Assembly (NCBI RefSeq): GCF_027111275.1
Contig: NZ_CP114286.1
Span: 1,922,001 to 1,986,000 of the forward strand
Direction: 5' to 3'
DNA: 64,000 bases
From: Flavobacterium luteolum
Lineage (GTDB): Bacteria; Bacteroidota; Bacteroidia; Flavobacteriales; Flavobacteriaceae
The first letter of the stretch is position 1. Each line of letters opens with the position of its first letter. Below are positions 3,371 to 55,954 of the stretch, piece by piece. A model generated the notes under the pieces. The model was not told the origin of the DNA and ran no database searches. It saw nothing but the letters and a program-made list of their open reading frames with translations. Both the position numbers and the translations under genes were made by a program.

Positions 3371-4870
3371 CTAAAGCATCTTGTAAACAAAATTCTTAAA
3401 CTTCACACTTCCCTTTCCAATCGAACAAAGGCCAATTCTTAATCCCAAAAATCCGCTTAAGACATTATGATTATATCCTGAAACTTCTACCGAGTTTTCG
3501 ATTTTTTTCCAGTCTTTTCCGTCTAAACTATAAAACATATCTACGGTATTTTTTATGTTTTTAAGTTTTAAAAATACTTTTCTATTATGTGTATTTTTTT
3601 CTGTTGGAAACTGCCATCCTCTCAAATTTGCCAAAATATTGTTTTGATCGGCTAGTATTCCTGAGTAATATCTATTATCGTAAAAAAGCGTTAATCCACC
3701 TACTGCATTGCCTTCGATTTCCATTTCAACTTCGGCGGAATAAGAATGTCCGCCTGGAACAATTACTAGAGGAGAACTGTTTCCTACTCCGTTGCCTTTT
3801 CCTTCAATAGTCAAAGTGTTATTAGCAACTTTAAATCTTGAAGCTTCTACTCCACTATAAAATTTCCATTGCGGTTTAAGAGCTGAGCCTGAGAAATTAT
3901 CACTTAAAGAAAATTCAGGAAGTGTTTTACCTTCAGGTTTTAAAATTGGTTTATCGGTTTCGATATGATCTGGAACTTTATACCAACCGTCTTTTGTCCA
4001 TTCTACTGGCTGCAATAAAGTTTGACGTCCTAAGTTGTAATAATCCTTTTCGTAACCGTGAAAAATCATCCACCATTTTCCGTTGGCATCTTCAAAAATA
4101 GTGCTGTGTCCTTTTGACCACCAAGTTTCAGAACTGCTGTTGGTTCTCACAATTGGATTATGTGGTGAGTTTTCCCAAGGGCCAAAAGGCGATTTTGATC
4201 GAGCCGAAATCACCATATGACTTGTCGCTGGGCCAGCTGTTCCGCCCTCAGCAACTGTCAGATAATAATATTCTCCTCGCTTGAATAATTTTGGTCCTTC
4301 CATACAAAAACACTCGATGCTCCATTCACGCGGAATTTTCCACCCATCGTAAACATGTTTCAATTCGCTTGTTACCGAAAGTCCGTCTTTTGATAAGGCA
4401 ACGTAACCTCCATTACTGAAATATAAAAATCGATTTCCTTTGTCATCCGTAACATGTCCCGGATCAATATTTCCGATTTTTAAATCTACCGGTTCGCTCC
4501 ACGGACCATTGATAGAATCTGCCGTAACGACAAAATTGGTGTTATTAGCAGGAAAATAGATGTAATATTTATTGTTGTACTTTATTAAATCGGGCGCCCA
4601 AACGGCTCCAACATATTTATGAAGCGCATTGGTTACAGGTTCCCAATTCATCAAATCGGTCGAATGCCAAATTAAAAGTCCAGGATAATAATCGAACGAA
4701 GAATGCGCAACATAATAATCTTTTCCGTCTCTTAACAAACTTGGATCTGGATAATCGCCCGCAAAAATTGGGTTTGAATATTGTCCTTGCTTTAAATTCT
4801 TTTCGGATTGTGATTGAGAATAACCATAATATGTAAACAATACTAAAATGGCTAAATATATTTTATTCAT
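3371..4870 (-). CDS. Secreted GH43 family glycoside hydrolase (xylosidase/arabinosidase-like)
   Basis: The protein has 499 residues from the ATG at 4870; an upstream TTG at 4891 overlaps the likely promoter and is rejected. A signal peptide ends at YGYSQS. The five-bladed propeller starts with GDYPDPSLLRDGKDYYVAHS, holding the Asp that acts as general base. The middle Asp lies near KIGNIDPGHV and the acid Glu in CMEGPKLF. GHSTIFED and WWMIFHG are later blade motifs. From about residue 345 a beta-sandwich domain of the DUF1349/GH43 C2 type follows. GH43 enzymes remove xylose or arabinose from plant polysaccharides. The gene stands alone, with no SusCD pair or regulator, so the substrate cannot be read from context. 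Confidence 0.88.
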   Translation of the reverse strand: MNKIYLAILVLFTYYGYSQSQSEKNLKQGQYSNPIFAGDYPDPSLLRDGKDYYVAHSSFDYYPGLLIWHSTDLMNWEPVTNALHKYVGAVWAPDLIKYNNKYYIYFPANNTNFVVTADSINGPWSEPVDLKIGNIDPGHVTDDKGNRFLYFSNGGYVALSKDGLSVTSELKHVYDGWKIPREWSIECFCMEGPKLFKRGEYYYLTVAEGGTAGPATSHMVISARSKSPFGPWENSPHNPIVRTNSSSETWWSKGHSTIFEDANGKWWMIFHGYEKDYYNLGRQTLLQPVEWTKDGWYKVPDHIETDKPILKPEGKTLPEFSLSDNFSGSALKPQWKFYSGVEASRFKVANNTLTIEGKGNGVGNSSPLVIVPGGHSYSAEVEMEIEGNAVGGLTLFYDNRYYSGILADQNNILANLRGWQFPTEKNTHNRKVFLKLKNIKNTVDMFYSLDGKDWKKIENSVEVSGYNHNVLSGFLGLRIGLCSIGKGSVKFKNFVYKML

Positions 4871-47864: not shown

Positions 47865-49046
47865 ATGCAAACACAAAACCAGATTGAAAATTTCCTTTTT
47901 CAGGGAAAATTTGACGAGGCCAGAGAATGCCTAAATAACGGAGAAAAATTTAACGAACAATATCTAAAAAACAATTTTTCGCAGATTGCTGGTAAAATCA
48001 TTGATGCCAAAGAAATTGATTTTATAGAAAAATTAATAAAAGCCGGATTTATTGAAACTGATATTTACGAATTGGACAGTTTTGATCAATCTATTTTCAA
48101 ATCTTTAAGTTTATATTTAAAAGATGATGAAGAGTCAATTGCTTTTTTCAAGGAATTTATGTCGAAAATGGATAACATCAACGATGAAATAAGCGATAAA
48201 ACCCTTCTTGGTTATTTTCTTGAAAAAGGTGTTTCGCCAAAAATAGTTCAAGTTTTAGTTGATGATTTTGGGGCTAACACTCAGTATAAGAACAATGCAG
48301 ACGAAAATTTCATTCATGCTGTTTTGAATGTTTACGGACTAGATCCTGAAAAAGTAAAAGAGTACATAGCCATTTTGACAAATAGCGGAGTTGACATTAA
48401 CGAAAAAAATATCGTTGGAACTACTCCACTTTTATGTGCCGTAAAAAGAAACAGAAAAGAACTAATCCCTTTTTTACTAGAAAACGGAGCAGATCCAAAC
48501 GAAACTGACAACCTCAACAATACTGCTTTTTATTATGCTGTTGCTGAACAGTTTTCATTTGATATGTATGATGCCTTAACTTCAATTTCTTCTCCTAATT
48601 TTAATATTGTAAATAAAGACGGCCGAACTCTATTTACTAGTTTTATCAGTTCTGCTTCGGGTTCTGCAAGTGATATTTCATTCATAGAACGATTATTGTC
48701 TGATGGCGCCGATGTAAATTTCTGCGCTCAATATTACGGACAGCCTAAATCAGGAATTGATTTTATTGTCGAAAAGAAATCGGATATCTTAAAATCTGTT
48801 TTAGAAAATGTTTCTTTAGATATAAATGAACAAGACAATCAAGGAAACACCATTTTGCATAAAGTATGCGCTTATAATGTCAATTACGACGCAGAAATGG
48901 CAAAAGAAACGTATAGAAAAGTAAAACTGTTATTAGATCAAGGTGCAGATATTTCTATTACAAACGACAAAGACGAAACTGCTTTAATGCTTGCTTCTGG
49001 CGATAATCTGAAAATTAAAACAGTCGAACTTTTAATGAAACAATAA
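47865..49046 (+). CDS. Ankyrin repeat protein
   Basis: The 393-residue protein has no signal peptide. The first 100 residues are charged and helical. Ankyrin units are clear at about 145-215 (DENFIHAVLNVYG, GTTPLLCAVKRNRKELIPFL, ENGADPNETDNLNNTAFYYA) and at about 265-393 (LLSDGADVNFC, QGNTILHKVC, LLDQGADISITNDKDETALM). Ankyrin stacks mediate protein binding; no enzymatic domain is attached. The second ankyrin gene begins 29 bp downstream. It is the first gene of a five-gene same-strand cluster. Confidence 0.85.
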   Translation: MQTQNQIENFLFQGKFDEARECLNNGEKFNEQYLKNNFSQIAGKIIDAKEIDFIEKLIKAGFIETDIYELDSFDQSIFKSLSLYLKDDEESIAFFKEFMSKMDNINDEISDKTLLGYFLEKGVSPKIVQVLVDDFGANTQYKNNADENFIHAVLNVYGLDPEKVKEYIAILTNSGVDINEKNIVGTTPLLCAVKRNRKELIPFLLENGADPNETDNLNNTAFYYAVAEQFSFDMYDALTSISSPNFNIVNKDGRTLFTSFISSASGSASDISFIERLLSDGADVNFCAQYYGQPKSGIDFIVEKKSDILKSVLENVSLDINEQDNQGNTILHKVCAYNVNYDAEMAKETYRKVKLLLDQGADISITNDKDETALMLASGDNLKIKTVELLMKQ

Positions 49047-49075
49047 AACGATCATTTACTTAAAATTACTCAAAG

Positions 49076-50422
49076 ATGTCAATGTCATTTATAGTTGCCT
49101 GCGAAAATGGGAACCGAAAAATAGCCGAATTGCTGCTTCAGAACAAAGAAGTAGACGTAAAATATACTGATGAAAAAGGAAGAACTGCAATTCATTATGC
49201 CGCGCACCGCGGTTATCTTGATATTGTAAAAATTCTACACGAAGAAGGTGCCGATATTAACTACGAAGATCATCAGGGAGAAACGCCTTTGTACTTTGCC
49301 TGTCTTCAAAAACAGAAACAAACTGCACTTTATCTTTTAGAAAATGGAGCAGAAATCACAAAGAATGATAAATACGGAAATAGTCTCCTACATTTAGTCG
49401 TTCAAACGGCTCAAATCGAAATCGCAACAAAGTTGCTTCAAGCCGGAACGGATGTTAATCTACTGAATAACAATGGAGAAACCCCTTTAATATTAGCTTC
49501 AACAAAATTAAACAGAGAAATTATCCAACTGCTTTTAGACAATGGAGCCGATATTAACGTAACCGATAAACAGGGAAATACGCCACTTATTTATGCTTGC
49601 TATACCAAATCGATTCCGATGGTGACTTTGCTCTTGGACAATGGCGCTGAGATAAACCACACTAATCATTCTGGCGAAAATGCGCTTTTAATTGCTTGCT
49701 ACGAAACCAACAGAATGTTAGCTAAATTATTGATTGAAAGAGGATCAGATGTATTTACTTCAAGCAATAATGGATATTCTCCTATTTGGTACGCTTGCGC
49801 GAATAATCAAAAGGAGATTGTGGCCTTGTTTTTAGAAAACGGAGTTGATGTGAACTATAGCAAGCCCGTCGCCAGCGATACTTCATCTATGAATGATTAT
49901 TTGGATTGGATTGTAAGCGCAACAAATATTTCAAATGAATCTACTTTTACCCTTAACGATTCTTATACTTATGGAGGTGAAAGCCTGTTGCACGTAGCTA
50001 CCAAAAAAGGAAATTTAAGCATGGTGAAACTGCTTATTGAAGCTGGAGCAAACATTAACATTCAAGACGAATCTGGAAATACGCCTTTGCATTACAGTGC
50101 CGCTAATGGTAAGAAAGATGTTGTAAAATATTTATTAGACAACAAAGCCGATGCTTCAATCGTAAACGTAAAAGAACAAAAAGCGATTGATTACTCGAAT
50201 GTAAAAGGCTTTAATGAAATTACAGAACTAATTCTGAAATACGCTCCGTCTGGAACTGTTGTAACCTCCATAAATGTTCCGCAAGAAGCACCAAAAACTG
50301 AAGCTTCAAATTCGATGGAAGCAAAGAAAAAGGCATTATTAGATTTAAAAGAACTTCTAGATGCTGGAATTTTGACTTCGGAAGAATTTGACGCTGAGAA
50401 AAGTAAAATATTAAAAGGATAA
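49076..50422 (+). CDS. Ankyrin repeat protein with C-terminal SHOCT domain
   Basis: The 448-residue protein consists of about ten regular ankyrin repeats (about residues 3-385), each with a T-P-L-x-x-A core and an ending such as LLDNGADINVTDKQGNTPL. An insert of roughly 35 residues (about 262-297) breaks the array. The last 35 residues, ALLDLKELLDAGILTSEEFD, form a SHOCT domain, a short helix pair usually found at the end of bacterial proteins and thought to mediate oligomerisation. It has two Met options at 49076 and 49082; either is possible. The combination is cytosolic and presumably scaffolding. Confidence 0.88.
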   Translation: MSMSFIVACENGNRKIAELLLQNKEVDVKYTDEKGRTAIHYAAHRGYLDIVKILHEEGADINYEDHQGETPLYFACLQKQKQTALYLLENGAEITKNDKYGNSLLHLVVQTAQIEIATKLLQAGTDVNLLNNNGETPLILASTKLNREIIQLLLDNGADINVTDKQGNTPLIYACYTKSIPMVTLLLDNGAEINHTNHSGENALLIACYETNRMLAKLLIERGSDVFTSSNNGYSPIWYACANNQKEIVALFLENGVDVNYSKPVASDTSSMNDYLDWIVSATNISNESTFTLNDSYTYGGESLLHVATKKGNLSMVKLLIEAGANINIQDESGNTPLHYSAANGKKDVVKYLLDNKADASIVNVKEQKAIDYSNVKGFNEITELILKYAPSGTVVTSINVPQEAPKTEASNSMEAKKKALLDLKELLDAGILTSEEFDAEKSKILKG

Positions 50423-52939: not shown

Positions 52940-53170
52940 CTAAGTCTCCTTAACCGTAATAATCTTTACTGGACAAGCCTTTGCTGCCAATTCACAGCTT
53001 TCCACAATGGCATGATTCGGAGATTTTAGAGTAAAAAATCCTTTTGCATTCTGCGAATGAATCAAAACCGATTTTCCGTCTTTTTTTGACATTTGAAAAT
53101 GAATCGGATCCATCTCGACACAGTAATTACAGCCAATGCACTTATCTCTTTGTAAAGTTACAATAACCAT
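52940..53170 (-). CDS. 4Fe-4S ferredoxin
   Basis: The 76-residue protein has one cluster motif split between its ends: C-I-G-C-N-Y-C in residues about 11-17, and a later SCELAAKACPVKII supplying the fourth Cys before Pro. This is the single-cluster type with a C-x2-C-x2-C...C-P arrangement. Its ATG shares a base with the trhP stop codon (TAATG), so it is translated with TrhP. TrhP-type proteins are iron-sulfur enzymes, which suggests that this ferredoxin supplies electrons or a cluster to it, though that partnership is inferred. Confidence 0.92.
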   Translation of the reverse strand: MVIVTLQRDKCIGCNYCVEMDPIHFQMSKKDGKSVLIHSQNAKGFFTLKSPNHAIVESCELAAKACPVKIITVKET

Positions 53171-54411
53171 TATGCCTCAACAATTTTATATAATTTGTCC
53201 GACATTCTGATTCTGAATGGCAATTTGAAACTGCAATCATCTCCTTTTGTGGCTTTTTCACCAGCAGCATCATTCACAAACATTTCGTCGATAATCATTT
53301 CCTGTGCACCTGTACTTGGTCCCGTTACTAAAATTTTATCACCAATTTTAATGTCATAAGCTTCAATCTTAAATTGCCCTATTTCTGCTTTCGGGAAATA
53401 ATGTGTTCCTTTTCCAACATAAACCTTTTTCTGAGTCGCTGCAGATCCTGGAATATCACTCCATTCACCTAATTCCTGACCTAGATAATATCCAGACCAG
53501 AATCCGCGATTGTAAACGGTTTCTAAGGCTTTCATCCATTCTGCAGTTTTTTCTTTGGAAAAAGCACCTTCATAGTAAGCATCAATTGCTTCACGATAAG
53601 TTTTAGTTACCGTTGCGACATATTCTGGTGCACGGCCACGTCCTTCGATTTTCAAAACCTTAATTCCAGAATCGATAACCTGATCTAAGAAATCCAATGT
53701 ACATAAATCTTTTGGTGACATCATATATTCGTTATCCAATTCGATTTCAAAACCTGTTTCCTGATCGATAACGGTATATTTTTTTCGGCAGTTTTGTTTG
53801 CATGCGCCACGATTTGCAGATGAATTATGCGAATGCAAGCTCAAATAACATTTTCCTGAAACCGCCATACACAAAGCTCCATGGCCAAAAATTTCGATTT
53901 CGACTAGATTTCCATTCGGTCCTTTTATCTGCTCTTTCTCAATTTGATCTGTGATGTTTTTTACTTGACGCAAACTCAATTCTCGGCTTAAAACCATTGT
54001 ATCTGCAAATAAACTGTAGAATTTAATGCTTTCAATATTCGTCACATTCAGCTGAGTTGAAATATGAACTTCCATTCCAATCGATCTTGCCATAGCTATT
54101 ACAGCTTGGTCAGAAGCTATTACAGCTGTAATATTGGCCTCTTTAGCTTTCGTCAATAATGTTTTTACAACCGATAAATCGTGATCGTAAATAATGGTAT
54201 TTAAAGTCAAATAGCTTCTAACTTTTTTGGCTTCACATCGATTGGCGATTTCTTTTAAATCGTCAATTGTAAAATTTACCGTTGAACGCGCACGCATATT
54301 AAGCTGTTCAACTCCAAAATATACTGAATCACAGCCATTATCTAAAGCAGCCTGAAGCGACTCAAAATCTCCAGCTGGAGCCATGAGTTCAATTGTATTG
54401 TTAATTGTCAT
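53170..54411 (-). CDS. trhP: U32 family protein, probable tRNA 5-hydroxyuridine synthase TrhP
   Basis: The 413-residue protein starts at the ATG at 54411; a TTG at 54429 is rejected. U32 motifs are LMAPAGDFESLQAALDNGCD at the start, VEIEIFGHGALCMAVSGKCY, NRGACKQNCRKKY and LKIEGRGRAPEYVATVTKTY, with cysteines expected to hold an iron-sulfur cluster. E. coli TrhP makes 5-hydroxyuridine at tRNA position 34 using prephenate; the related RlhA acts on 23S rRNA, so the choice between them is not certain. Residues about 328-413 form the U32 C-terminal domain, homologous to the end of TrhO encoded just upstream. The promoter carries an FNR-like palindrome. Confidence 0.85.
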   Translation of the reverse strand: MTINNTIELMAPAGDFESLQAALDNGCDSVYFGVEQLNMRARSTVNFTIDDLKEIANRCEAKKVRSYLTLNTIIYDHDLSVVKTLLTKAKEANITAVIASDQAVIAMARSIGMEVHISTQLNVTNIESIKFYSLFADTMVLSRELSLRQVKNITDQIEKEQIKGPNGNLVEIEIFGHGALCMAVSGKCYLSLHSHNSSANRGACKQNCRKKYTVIDQETGFEIELDNEYMMSPKDLCTLDFLDQVIDSGIKVLKIEGRGRAPEYVATVTKTYREAIDAYYEGAFSKEKTAEWMKALETVYNRGFWSGYYLGQELGEWSDIPGSAATQKKVYVGKGTHYFPKAEIGQFKIEAYDIKIGDKILVTGPSTGAQEMIIDEMFVNDAAGEKATKGDDCSFKLPFRIRMSDKLYKIVEA

Positions 54412-54433
54412 TTTCGATCTATTATTCAAATGA

Positions 54434-54441
54434 CAAAATTA
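54434..54441 (-). promoter_or_regulatory. Putative -7 promoter element for trhP
   Basis: On the minus strand it reads TAATTTTG, an exact TAnnTTTG match, 22 bases before the ATG. No TTG lies at -33. Confidence 0.55.
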
Positions 54442-54462
54442 ATGTGGGTATAGATTAGATTT

Positions 54463-54480
54463 CTATGATATATATCATAG
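54463..54480. promoter_or_regulatory. 18-bp perfect palindrome, FNR/CRP-like operator
   Basis: ctatgatatatatcatag is identical on both strands. Its core TGAT-ATAT-ATCA matches the half-site spacing of FNR (TTGAT-N4-ATCAA). The centre lies about 42 bp upstream of the start site expected from the -7 element at 54434-54441, the classical position for a class II activator. Confidence 0.6.
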
Positions 54481-54513
54481 TCTATATTTTAAAAATTATC
54501 CGCAGTATATTAT

Positions 54514-54546
54514 TAAAAAAGCCCACGATTGAAAACGTGGGCTTTG
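54514..54546 (-). terminator. Intrinsic terminator of trhO
   Basis: aaagcccacg (54518-54527) pairs perfectly with cgtgggcttt (54536-54545). On the minus strand it is followed by a T-run, so it ends trhO and separates it from trhP. Confidence 0.88.
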
Positions 54547-54595
54547 TTCTATATTATCAAAATTTAACTTAAATACCGCAGCACTCCTATTAAAC

Positions 54596-55954
54596 TCAAT
54601 CTAAAATCTTGTATACTTTATCAGACAATCTAATTCTGAAAGGAACCTCAAAAGTAACCCTATCACCAACTTTAGCAGTTTGAGTTTCTGCGCCATTAAC
54701 AATGATTTTGTCTAAAATCAATTCTTGATCTCCAGTTGTTGGGCCAGAAATAAGGATTCTATCACCACTGTTTAATTCGTGATTTTCTACAGTAAATTGT
54801 CCAACTTGAGCTTTTACGTAATAGTGTTCTGCTTTCCCAAGAAGTACTTTTTTTACTTTTATTTTCTGACGGATATCTGCTGGCTTTTGCGCTGTAGCCA
54901 AAGCAGTTTCTGGCAATTCCCCTGAATGTTTGAATTTCAAGTTTTCAGATTTTCCTTTTCTGAATACTTTGTTTCCAACTTGTTTTCCAGTTCTTAAACG
55001 AACTTGATCAACTAAAGGCATGTGTATAATATCCAAGCATTCTGTAGAACAGCAGTTTTCCATTGCCGCTTTACATTCATCACATTGAATAAATAATAAA
55101 TGACAACCATCGTTTTCGCAATTCGTGTGGTTATCGCAAGGTTTACCGCATTGATGGCATTGCGAAATAATATCATCTGTAATTCTTTCACCTAGACGAT
55201 TATCAAATACAAAGTTTTTACCAATGAACTTACTTTCTAAACCTTCTTCTTTCAATTGTTTAGCGTAATTAATAATTCCGCCTTCTAACTGATACACATT
55301 TTTGAAACCTTGATGTTTAAAGTAAGCACTTGCTTTTTCGCAACGAATACCTCCAGTACAATACATTACCAGATTTTTATCTTCTTTATGGTCTTGTAGC
55401 TGTTCGTTAATGATTGGCAAACTCTCTCTAAATGTTTCAACATCTGGGGTGATTGCGTTTTTAAAATGTCCTACTTCACTTTCGTAATGATTTCTAAAAT
55501 CAACCACAATCGTGTTTGGATCGTCAAGGATTTCGTTGAATTCTTTGGCTTTCAAGTGAACGCCTATATTGGTTACATCAAAAGTATCATCGTTTAAACC
55601 GTCGGCAACGATTTTGTGACGAACTTTAATCGTTAATTTTAAAAACGAATGATCATCGTGTTCTACAGCTTCATTCAATCGAATGCCTTTCATGAAGTCA
55701 TATACTTCAAGAGTTGTTCTAAAAGCCTCCAAATTTTCAGCAGGAATACTCATTTGAGCATTTATTCCTTCGCTGGCAACATAAATTCGGCCTAATGCAT
55801 CAAGGGCATTCCAGGCTAGGAATAAGTCGTTACGAAATTTTTGTGGATCTTGAATTTTGGCATACGCATAGAAAGACAACGTTAGTCGTTGTTTACCTGC
55901 ATCATCGATCATGATGGCTCTTTCTTCTGCGCTCAAAGTGTTATACAGTTGCAT
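54596..55954 (-). CDS. trhO: Rhodanese-type tRNA uridine(34) hydroxylase TrhO with extra C-terminal domain
   Basis: The 452-residue protein is longer than E. coli TrhO (about 350). The N-terminal acylphosphatase-like domain ends near residue 100, with VASEGINAQMSIP. The rhodanese domain has VVDFRNHYESEVGHFKNAI and the active-site loop VMYCTGGIRCEKASAYF. A Cys-rich segment, CHQCGKPCDNHTNCENDGC, follows. TrhO makes 5-hydroxyuridine at tRNA position 34 using O2. Residues about 368-452 form an added domain about half identical to the C-terminal domain of the adjacent TrhP. It has its own promoter and terminator. Confidence 0.93.
   Translation of the reverse strand: MQLYNTLSAEERAIMIDDAGKQRLTLSFYAYAKIQDPQKFRNDLFLAWNALDALGRIYVASEGINAQMSIPAENLEAFRTTLEVYDFMKGIRLNEAVEHDDHSFLKLTIKVRHKIVADGLNDDTFDVTNIGVHLKAKEFNEILDDPNTIVVDFRNHYESEVGHFKNAITPDVETFRESLPIINEQLQDHKEDKNLVMYCTGGIRCEKASAYFKHQGFKNVYQLEGGIINYAKQLKEEGLESKFIGKNFVFDNRLGERITDDIISQCHQCGKPCDNHTNCENDGCHLLFIQCDECKAAMENCCSTECLDIIHMPLVDQVRLRTGKQVGNKVFRKGKSENLKFKHSGELPETALATAQKPADIRQKIKVKKVLLGKAEHYYVKAQVGQFTVENHELNSGDRILISGPTTGDQELILDKIIVNGAETQTAKVGDRVTFEVPFRIRLSDKVYKILD

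Follow-up and report, generated by a model that had tools for sequence, protein, structure and literature searches.

Formation of 5-hydroxyuridine at position 34 of tRNA (ho5U34) is known from two enzymes, the O2-dependent TrhO and the prephenate-dependent TrhP, in the latter of which residues E162, C170 and C177 are essential (PMC6599085). According to that report, trhP occurs chiefly in gamma- and beta-proteobacteria and in some desulfobacteria, and other U32 subfamilies may be functional homologues of TrhP; the report leaves the role of the U32 C-terminal domain open. Here we examine a stretch of 64,000 nucleotides from Flavobacterium luteolum (assembly GCF_027111275.1, contig NZ_CP114286.1, positions 1,922,001 to 1,986,000; hereafter the window), in which a trhO gene with a C-terminal extension lies beside a gene for a TrhP-like U32-family protein, the two proteins sharing their C-terminal domain (hereafter the tail). 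We think it rather likely that a barrel of the U32 C-terminal type was copied once onto TrhO and docks tRNA for both U34 hydroxylases.

The C-terminal domain shared by TrhO and the U32 protein

The closest described counterpart of the first enzyme is TrhO (YceA, UPF0176) of E. coli and B. subtilis. The trhO gene of the window (54,596..55,954, minus strand) encodes an oxygen-dependent tRNA uridine(34) hydroxylase of 452 residues that is extended at its C-terminus. It is identical to E. coli TrhO at 179 of 348 aligned residues, scores 266 bits against NCBIfam NF001133 (cut-off 170), and has the same Pfam domains (UPF0176_N, Rhodanese and Rhodanese_C) and the same CTGGIRC loop, of the CXGGXR form, at residue 199 (200 in E. 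coli). Judged by its sequence, this protein is an O2-dependent ho5U34 hydroxylase. E. coli TrhO has 350 residues and ends at about residue 360 of the window protein, so it indeed lacks the extension, as the initial annotation had stated, whereas the window TrhO has a further 85-residue tail (residues 368-452; 54,599..54,853, minus strand).

The neighboring U32 protein (53,170..54,411, minus strand; Peptidase_U32, 240.5 bits) has 413 residues when read from the ATG at 54,411 and 419 when read from an alternative TTG start at 54,429, which adds six residues (53,170..54,429, minus strand); its last 86 residues (53,173..53,430, minus strand) form the second copy of the tail. Like TrhP (YegQ), it consists of a U32 domain and a C-terminal domain and keeps the essential glutamate and two cysteines as well as two more cysteines, with E173, C181, C188, C204 and C208 aligned to TrhP E162, C170, C177, C193 and C197. 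It differs from TrhP in being shorter and in having a ferredoxin gene after it, and the two are 30% identical (118/390).

By BLASTP, U32 residues 334-418 (419-residue numbering) align with TrhO residues 368-452 without a gap, with 43 of 85 positions identical and 67 positive (E 2e-28), which rules out chance or convergence as the origin of the likeness and bears out an initial count, by eye, of about 43 identities. The similarity expected at the profile level was also found: a profile built from 24 U32 tails, with no TrhO included, recovers the TrhO tails at E 8e-25 to 1e-31 among the frames searched. These two are the only copies of the tail in their own genome, where the window belongs to a single contig of 5.36 Mb, and the U32 tail is 98% identical to its F. 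nitrogenifigens counterpart. In neither protein is the tail covered by a Pfam family scoring over its own cut-off. Once 17 distant U32 rows are set aside, no alignment column splits TrhO from U32 tails at 90% each, and K369, R442, D445 and K449 are conserved in TrhO and U32 tails alike.

Position and predicted fold tie the tail to U32 enzymes. It sits directly after the U32 barrel, collinear with residues 359-434 of E. coli TrhP, the region of that protein assigned to PF16325 (Peptidase_U32_C), and the profile alignment of the U32 protein with TrhP runs on through the tail, to window residue 397 and TrhP residue 425. In the full-length U32 model, the tail has the fold of the solved U32 C-terminal domain, matching 4he5 at a root-mean-square deviation of 1.2. 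That domain, from the U32 peptidase of Geobacillus thermoleovorans (PDB 4he5 and 4he6), is 20% identical to the tail in the structural alignment and sits on a U32 protein, not on a rhodanese-type enzyme; a search of PDB with the E. coli TrhP sequence returned no chain at E<=1. After U32, the nearest folds are translation-factor barrels such as those of EF-Tu and IF2, but the beta-barrel domains of EF-Tu, IF2, eIF5B and eEF1A are only about 9-22% identical to the tail and belong to a GTPase context, and a common fold shows no function. On this modeled structure, the tail is most likely a Peptidase_U32_C domain that has diverged in Bacteroidota, and so an accessory already known from U32 proteins, here in an unfamiliar setting.

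Distribution and origin of the TrhO tail

In a phylum sample of 148 genomes, 69 have a tail match, on frames of 374-534 aa except for a 202-aa frame (G024) and a second match of 88 aa in G117 (G117:C4:561011-561229). The latter bears a stop, lies about 2.7 kb from the first match and is probably a decayed copy. Across 30 phylum loci that were fetched, the tail occurs phylum-wide on U32, while among TrhO proteins it is confined to Flavobacterium and another family, f2, apparently the Chryseobacterium family; no third tail-bearing architecture was seen among these 30. Tail matches are present in 86 of the 249 genomes of the window's own family, 230 of which have TrhO, and among the matches listed the TrhO frames are of tail length in five, three from Flavobacterium and two from genus g115. 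In f2 the tail is present in 118/118 genomes. All 220 Flavobacterium genomes have TrhO and at least one tail match, and all of their TrhO frames among the matches listed are at least 452 aa long.

A tree of 85 TrhO cores separates 72 tailed or fused proteins from 13 tail-less ones by a branch with 100/100 support. The f2 TrhO proteins are nested in a group with those of Flavobacterium (28 rows, 100/97), indicating that tailed TrhO moved between families; a separate Flavobacterium clade is rejected (approximately unbiased, AU, test, p 0.0094), and genus g115 also falls inside. A tree of 151 tails, which excludes the separate 78-aa tail frame of locus L050 (see below) and is weakly resolved because it has only 86 columns, groups all 70 TrhO tails into a single clade (95/93, and in 96% of 200 bootstrap trees), placed beside the Flavobacterium U32 tails. 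The TrhO tails of two loci, L037 and L038, resemble the U32 tail of the window (63-66%) more than the TrhO tail there (49-51%), a likeness that we attribute to slower change in that subclade; multiple independent grafts or gene conversion are ruled out, all 70 TrhO tails being one clade.

These results give good support to the proposal, made in the initial annotation, that the two enzymes have a module in common which passed from one to the other: the TrhO tails are a single clade, the donor family is phylum-wide, the recipients form one clade, and the fold is of the type found in U32 C-termini and translation factors. The direction of transfer rests on distribution, the domain being general on U32 and local on TrhO, which points to a move from U32 to TrhO.

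Gene neighborhood and fused reading frames

Gene order was compared in 101 stretches, the window and 100 that were fetched, two of them from one genome, which make up a hand-picked and non-random set. Tailed TrhO occurs with an intact tailed U32 in 33 (one of which also holds a U32 remnant), alone in 36, and in one with a U32 frame that stops before the tail, while tail-less TrhO occurs with U32 in 10 and alone in two; U32 is alone in 17, and two stretches hold fusions. A further 80 named loci were found with a fusion as query, which favors loci holding both genes; they comprise 63 with both proteins tailed, 14 with tail-less TrhO and U32, one fusion and two cut by contig ends. Thirteen of these 14 are in records not named Flavobacterium, for example Gelidibacter, Winogradskyella and Formosa. 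A record of Flavobacterium johnsoniae, a laboratory species, has tailed TrhO, tailed U32 and the ferredoxin one after another (L204). In locus L149 (Flavobacterium UBA8409), the tail has been lost from TrhO and the adjoining U32 is intact. The gap between trhO and u32 is 20 nt or less in 4/10 and 12/14 stretches of the respective sets where TrhO is tail-less, and in 18/34 and 19/63 where it is tailed.

The 76-aa ferredoxin-like protein of the window (52,940..53,170, minus strand; Fer4_13, 47.2 bits) is encoded immediately after the U32 gene, its start overlapping the U32 stop codon. A ferredoxin-like gene follows U32 at a distance of no more than 150 nt in 61/63 and 79/79 U32-bearing stretches of the two sets, and in 0/38 stretches with TrhO but without U32. 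As for the exceptions, L131 lacks the gene, and L050 has it beyond a broken U32, whose frame stops at 331 aa and whose tail is on a separate 78-aa frame (G683, 3528-4768), through either a sequencing error or a true break. Some 3.4 kb past its intact cluster, locus L039 also shows what is probably a decayed copy (G554, 65-760), with pieces of another U32 (80 aa) and another ferredoxin (66 aa).

Fused open reading frames were found in three records, L033 (770 aa), L034 (776 aa) and L134 (776 aa), each joining a TrhO core, a U32 core and a single tail, with the ferredoxin gene next. L033 and L034 place the fusion in at least two of the 220 Flavobacterium genomes; L134 lies on a contig of a Lentimicrobium metagenome-assembled genome record, which carries a Flavobacterium-type fusion gene and is probably mis-binned. 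Because the fusions are 94-95% identical to one another (726/770, 727/770 and 737/776), and the tree of TrhO cores (which does not include L134) pairs L033 with L034 as sisters, a single fusion event is likely. Their TrhO part is nested within the clade of tailed TrhO and their tail among U32 tails, meaning that TrhO's own tail was lost on joining. Both catalytic motifs are retained in L033 and, by eye, in L034. Despite these three in genome records, no fusion was among the best 120 of 7817 in a large protein set, and long spans in Gelidibacter, Winogradskyella and others were rejected as fusions, since in these a stop separates two neighboring genes.

A terminator-like palindrome with a 10-pair stem lies between trhO and u32 in the window (54,518..54,545), though the evidence for it is weak, as the region has two such sites against 1.8 in shuffles; a palindrome is likewise seen by eye between the two genes of L149. 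In L151, an IS200-like Y1 transposase (PF01797; 170-610) stands between the end of TrhO and U32. Elsewhere in the window (47,865-50,422) are two neighboring ankyrin-repeat proteins, the second ending in a SHOCT domain.

Function of the U32 protein and its tail

The initial annotation had named the U32 protein TrhP. Its match by profile to E. coli TrhP over the whole length (E 1.8e-48) and its essential residues, of which E173, C181 and C188 are invariant in 24/24 aligned phylum U32 proteins, the window's included, speak for a TrhP-like function; the name itself falls short of the NCBIfam cut-off, and we therefore write TrhP-like. Several records annotate this Bacteroidota family as protease or collagenase. 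The genome also encodes a second, longer U32 paralogue (639-aa frame, G000:C1:2952348-2953244) with about 36% identity to the U32 core.

Within the family, 65 of 249 genomes have both genes, 19 U32 only, 165 TrhO only and none neither (Fisher p 2.4e-10, uncorrected for kinship), all 19 TrhO-less genomes thus carrying U32. U32 was counted here as tail matches minus G021 and G180, where the tail is solely on TrhO; in 18 family genomes with a tail match that were inspected, including five of the 19, the match was on U32 every time. By genus, 15/15 genera with a TrhO-less genome lie among the 64/186 with the tail (p 3.4e-8). This complementarity, together with gene order, the TrhP residues and the three fused frames, indirectly supports the view that both enzymes make the same modification. 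As to the next step, a PF01596 methyltransferase is a strong match in 21/21 genomes (the own genome and 20 relatives), and CmoB is over its cut-off in 0/21, ruling out a CmoB-type step; 5-methoxyuridine (mo5U34) would accordingly be the expected product. TrmR is a PF01596 member, and NCBIfam does not give that name to the methyltransferase of the own genome.

We suggest that the tail is a beta-barrel of the translation-factor type whose original place is on U32 RNA hydroxylases, that it was copied a single time onto TrhO in a Flavobacterium ancestor in which trhO and u32 lay side by side, and that its most likely role in both enzymes is to assist docking of the tRNA close to the anticodon loop. 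Unrelated catalytic domains would then hydroxylate U34, TrhO with O2 and the U32 protein without it, probably using prephenate plus electrons that the adjacent ferredoxin may donate. Tails are slightly positive (median net charge +1 on TrhO and +2 on U32) and cores acidic (-13 and -7.5), and this charge and the conserved residues fit contact with RNA without showing it.

Several observations weigh against this reading. PF16325 (cut-off 28.2 bits) matches neither the window proteins (E<=1) nor the tails alone (E<=10), and 0/21 relatives match it, in contrast to E. coli, B. subtilis and L. lactis, so that the Peptidase_U32_C profile search suggested at the outset gave no hit and the link is made by fold and position instead; hhalign likewise yields a weak link (probability 16%) when only the tail is compared with E. 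coli TrhP. Against NF011996 (TrhP), the U32 protein scores 196.9 bits, with a cut-off of 534 and E. coli TrhP at 875. The tree draws the TrhO tails as branching from within those of Flavobacteriales U32 proteins, but statistically this need not be so, as a tree that keeps the 63 Flavobacteriales U32 and fusion tails together is not rejected (AU p 0.438). In the phylum sample, 29 genomes have both genes, 41 U32 only, 56 TrhO only and 22 neither (24 if U32 matches at 36% identity in G005 and G087 are excluded), which rules out strict complementarity across the phylum and means that the rule is not general. Six of the 70 U32-counted genomes in that sample show no tail by a two-row tail profile, U32 here being the 400-aa type (73 genomes matched, minus three holding only a 605-639-aa paralogue) and two of the 70 matching at only 36% identity. 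In pairs with a core silent divergence of 0.1-0.55, the TrhO tail (70 pairs) has a median ratio of nonsynonymous to synonymous substitution rates (dN/dS) of 0.070, roughly double the values for the TrhO core (0.036, 72 pairs) and U32 tail (0.036, 19 pairs), and it bears a net charge of no more than about +1. Since E. coli TrhO and the tail-less TrhO listed for the family lack it, the tail is dispensable for catalysis in general, and no tRNA-bound structure of the domain was found.

The weak charge of the tail, the translation-factor barrels (EF-Tu, IF2 and others) that are its nearest non-U32 folds, and the strong PF01596 methyltransferase, a next-step candidate, in all 21 genomes would suit a protein-docking module that contacts a partner enzyme, the next-step methyltransferase, the ribosome or a translation factor, and not tRNA. 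We regard this as unlikely, if worth serious thought: where U32 and ferredoxin are absent, the tail is still constrained (dN/dS 0.065, core 0.045; 17 pairs without intact U32), so neither is an obligatory partner, and the four residues conserved in both tails fit RNA equally well as protein. It is also conceivable, but rather doubtful, that the Bacteroidota U32 protein hydroxylates some other target, 23S rRNA as RlhA does or a quinone as UbiU/UbiV do, the tail being a general U32 accessory. Its scores fall below cut-off for the TrhP and UbiU models alike (the latter 167 bits against 440), and a quarter or so of the family, the 65 genomes above, retains both genes; however, U32 is present in every TrhO-less family genome, is fused to TrhO in three records, has TrhO alongside in 46/63 U32 stretches (a sample partly picked by TrhO), and matches TrhP over its full length. 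That the TrhO tail is a neutral passenger is highly improbable, for although the graft is seen once only and the two genes often abut, such that a single rearrangement could join them as a by-product of adjacency, the low dN/dS of the tail and its occurrence throughout Flavobacterium, on TrhO frames of full tailed length among the matches listed, speak against it.

With tRNA docking by a once-copied U32 barrel as the preferred explanation, four elements appear new so far as searched: the single graft, the keeping of the TrhO tail where U32 is absent, the dual hydroxylase formed by fusion, and the case that U32 of Bacteroidota is an equivalent of TrhP. Among the open-licence PMC papers listed, no title or abstract opening dealt with the shared domain or a TrhO-U32 fusion. 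A bolder possibility, which we judge almost as likely as not, is that in some Flavobacterium one polypeptide holds an O2-using and an O2-independent U34 hydroxylase with a single tRNA-docking barrel and so works with or without O2, and that U32 plus ferredoxin is the phylum's TrhP system. A domain moved between unrelated chemistries, together with natural fusions, offers a simple handle on the role of the U32 C-terminal domain, and the comparison puts forward a function for a U32 family that is widespread in Bacteroidota and links to it a ferredoxin as candidate electron donor.
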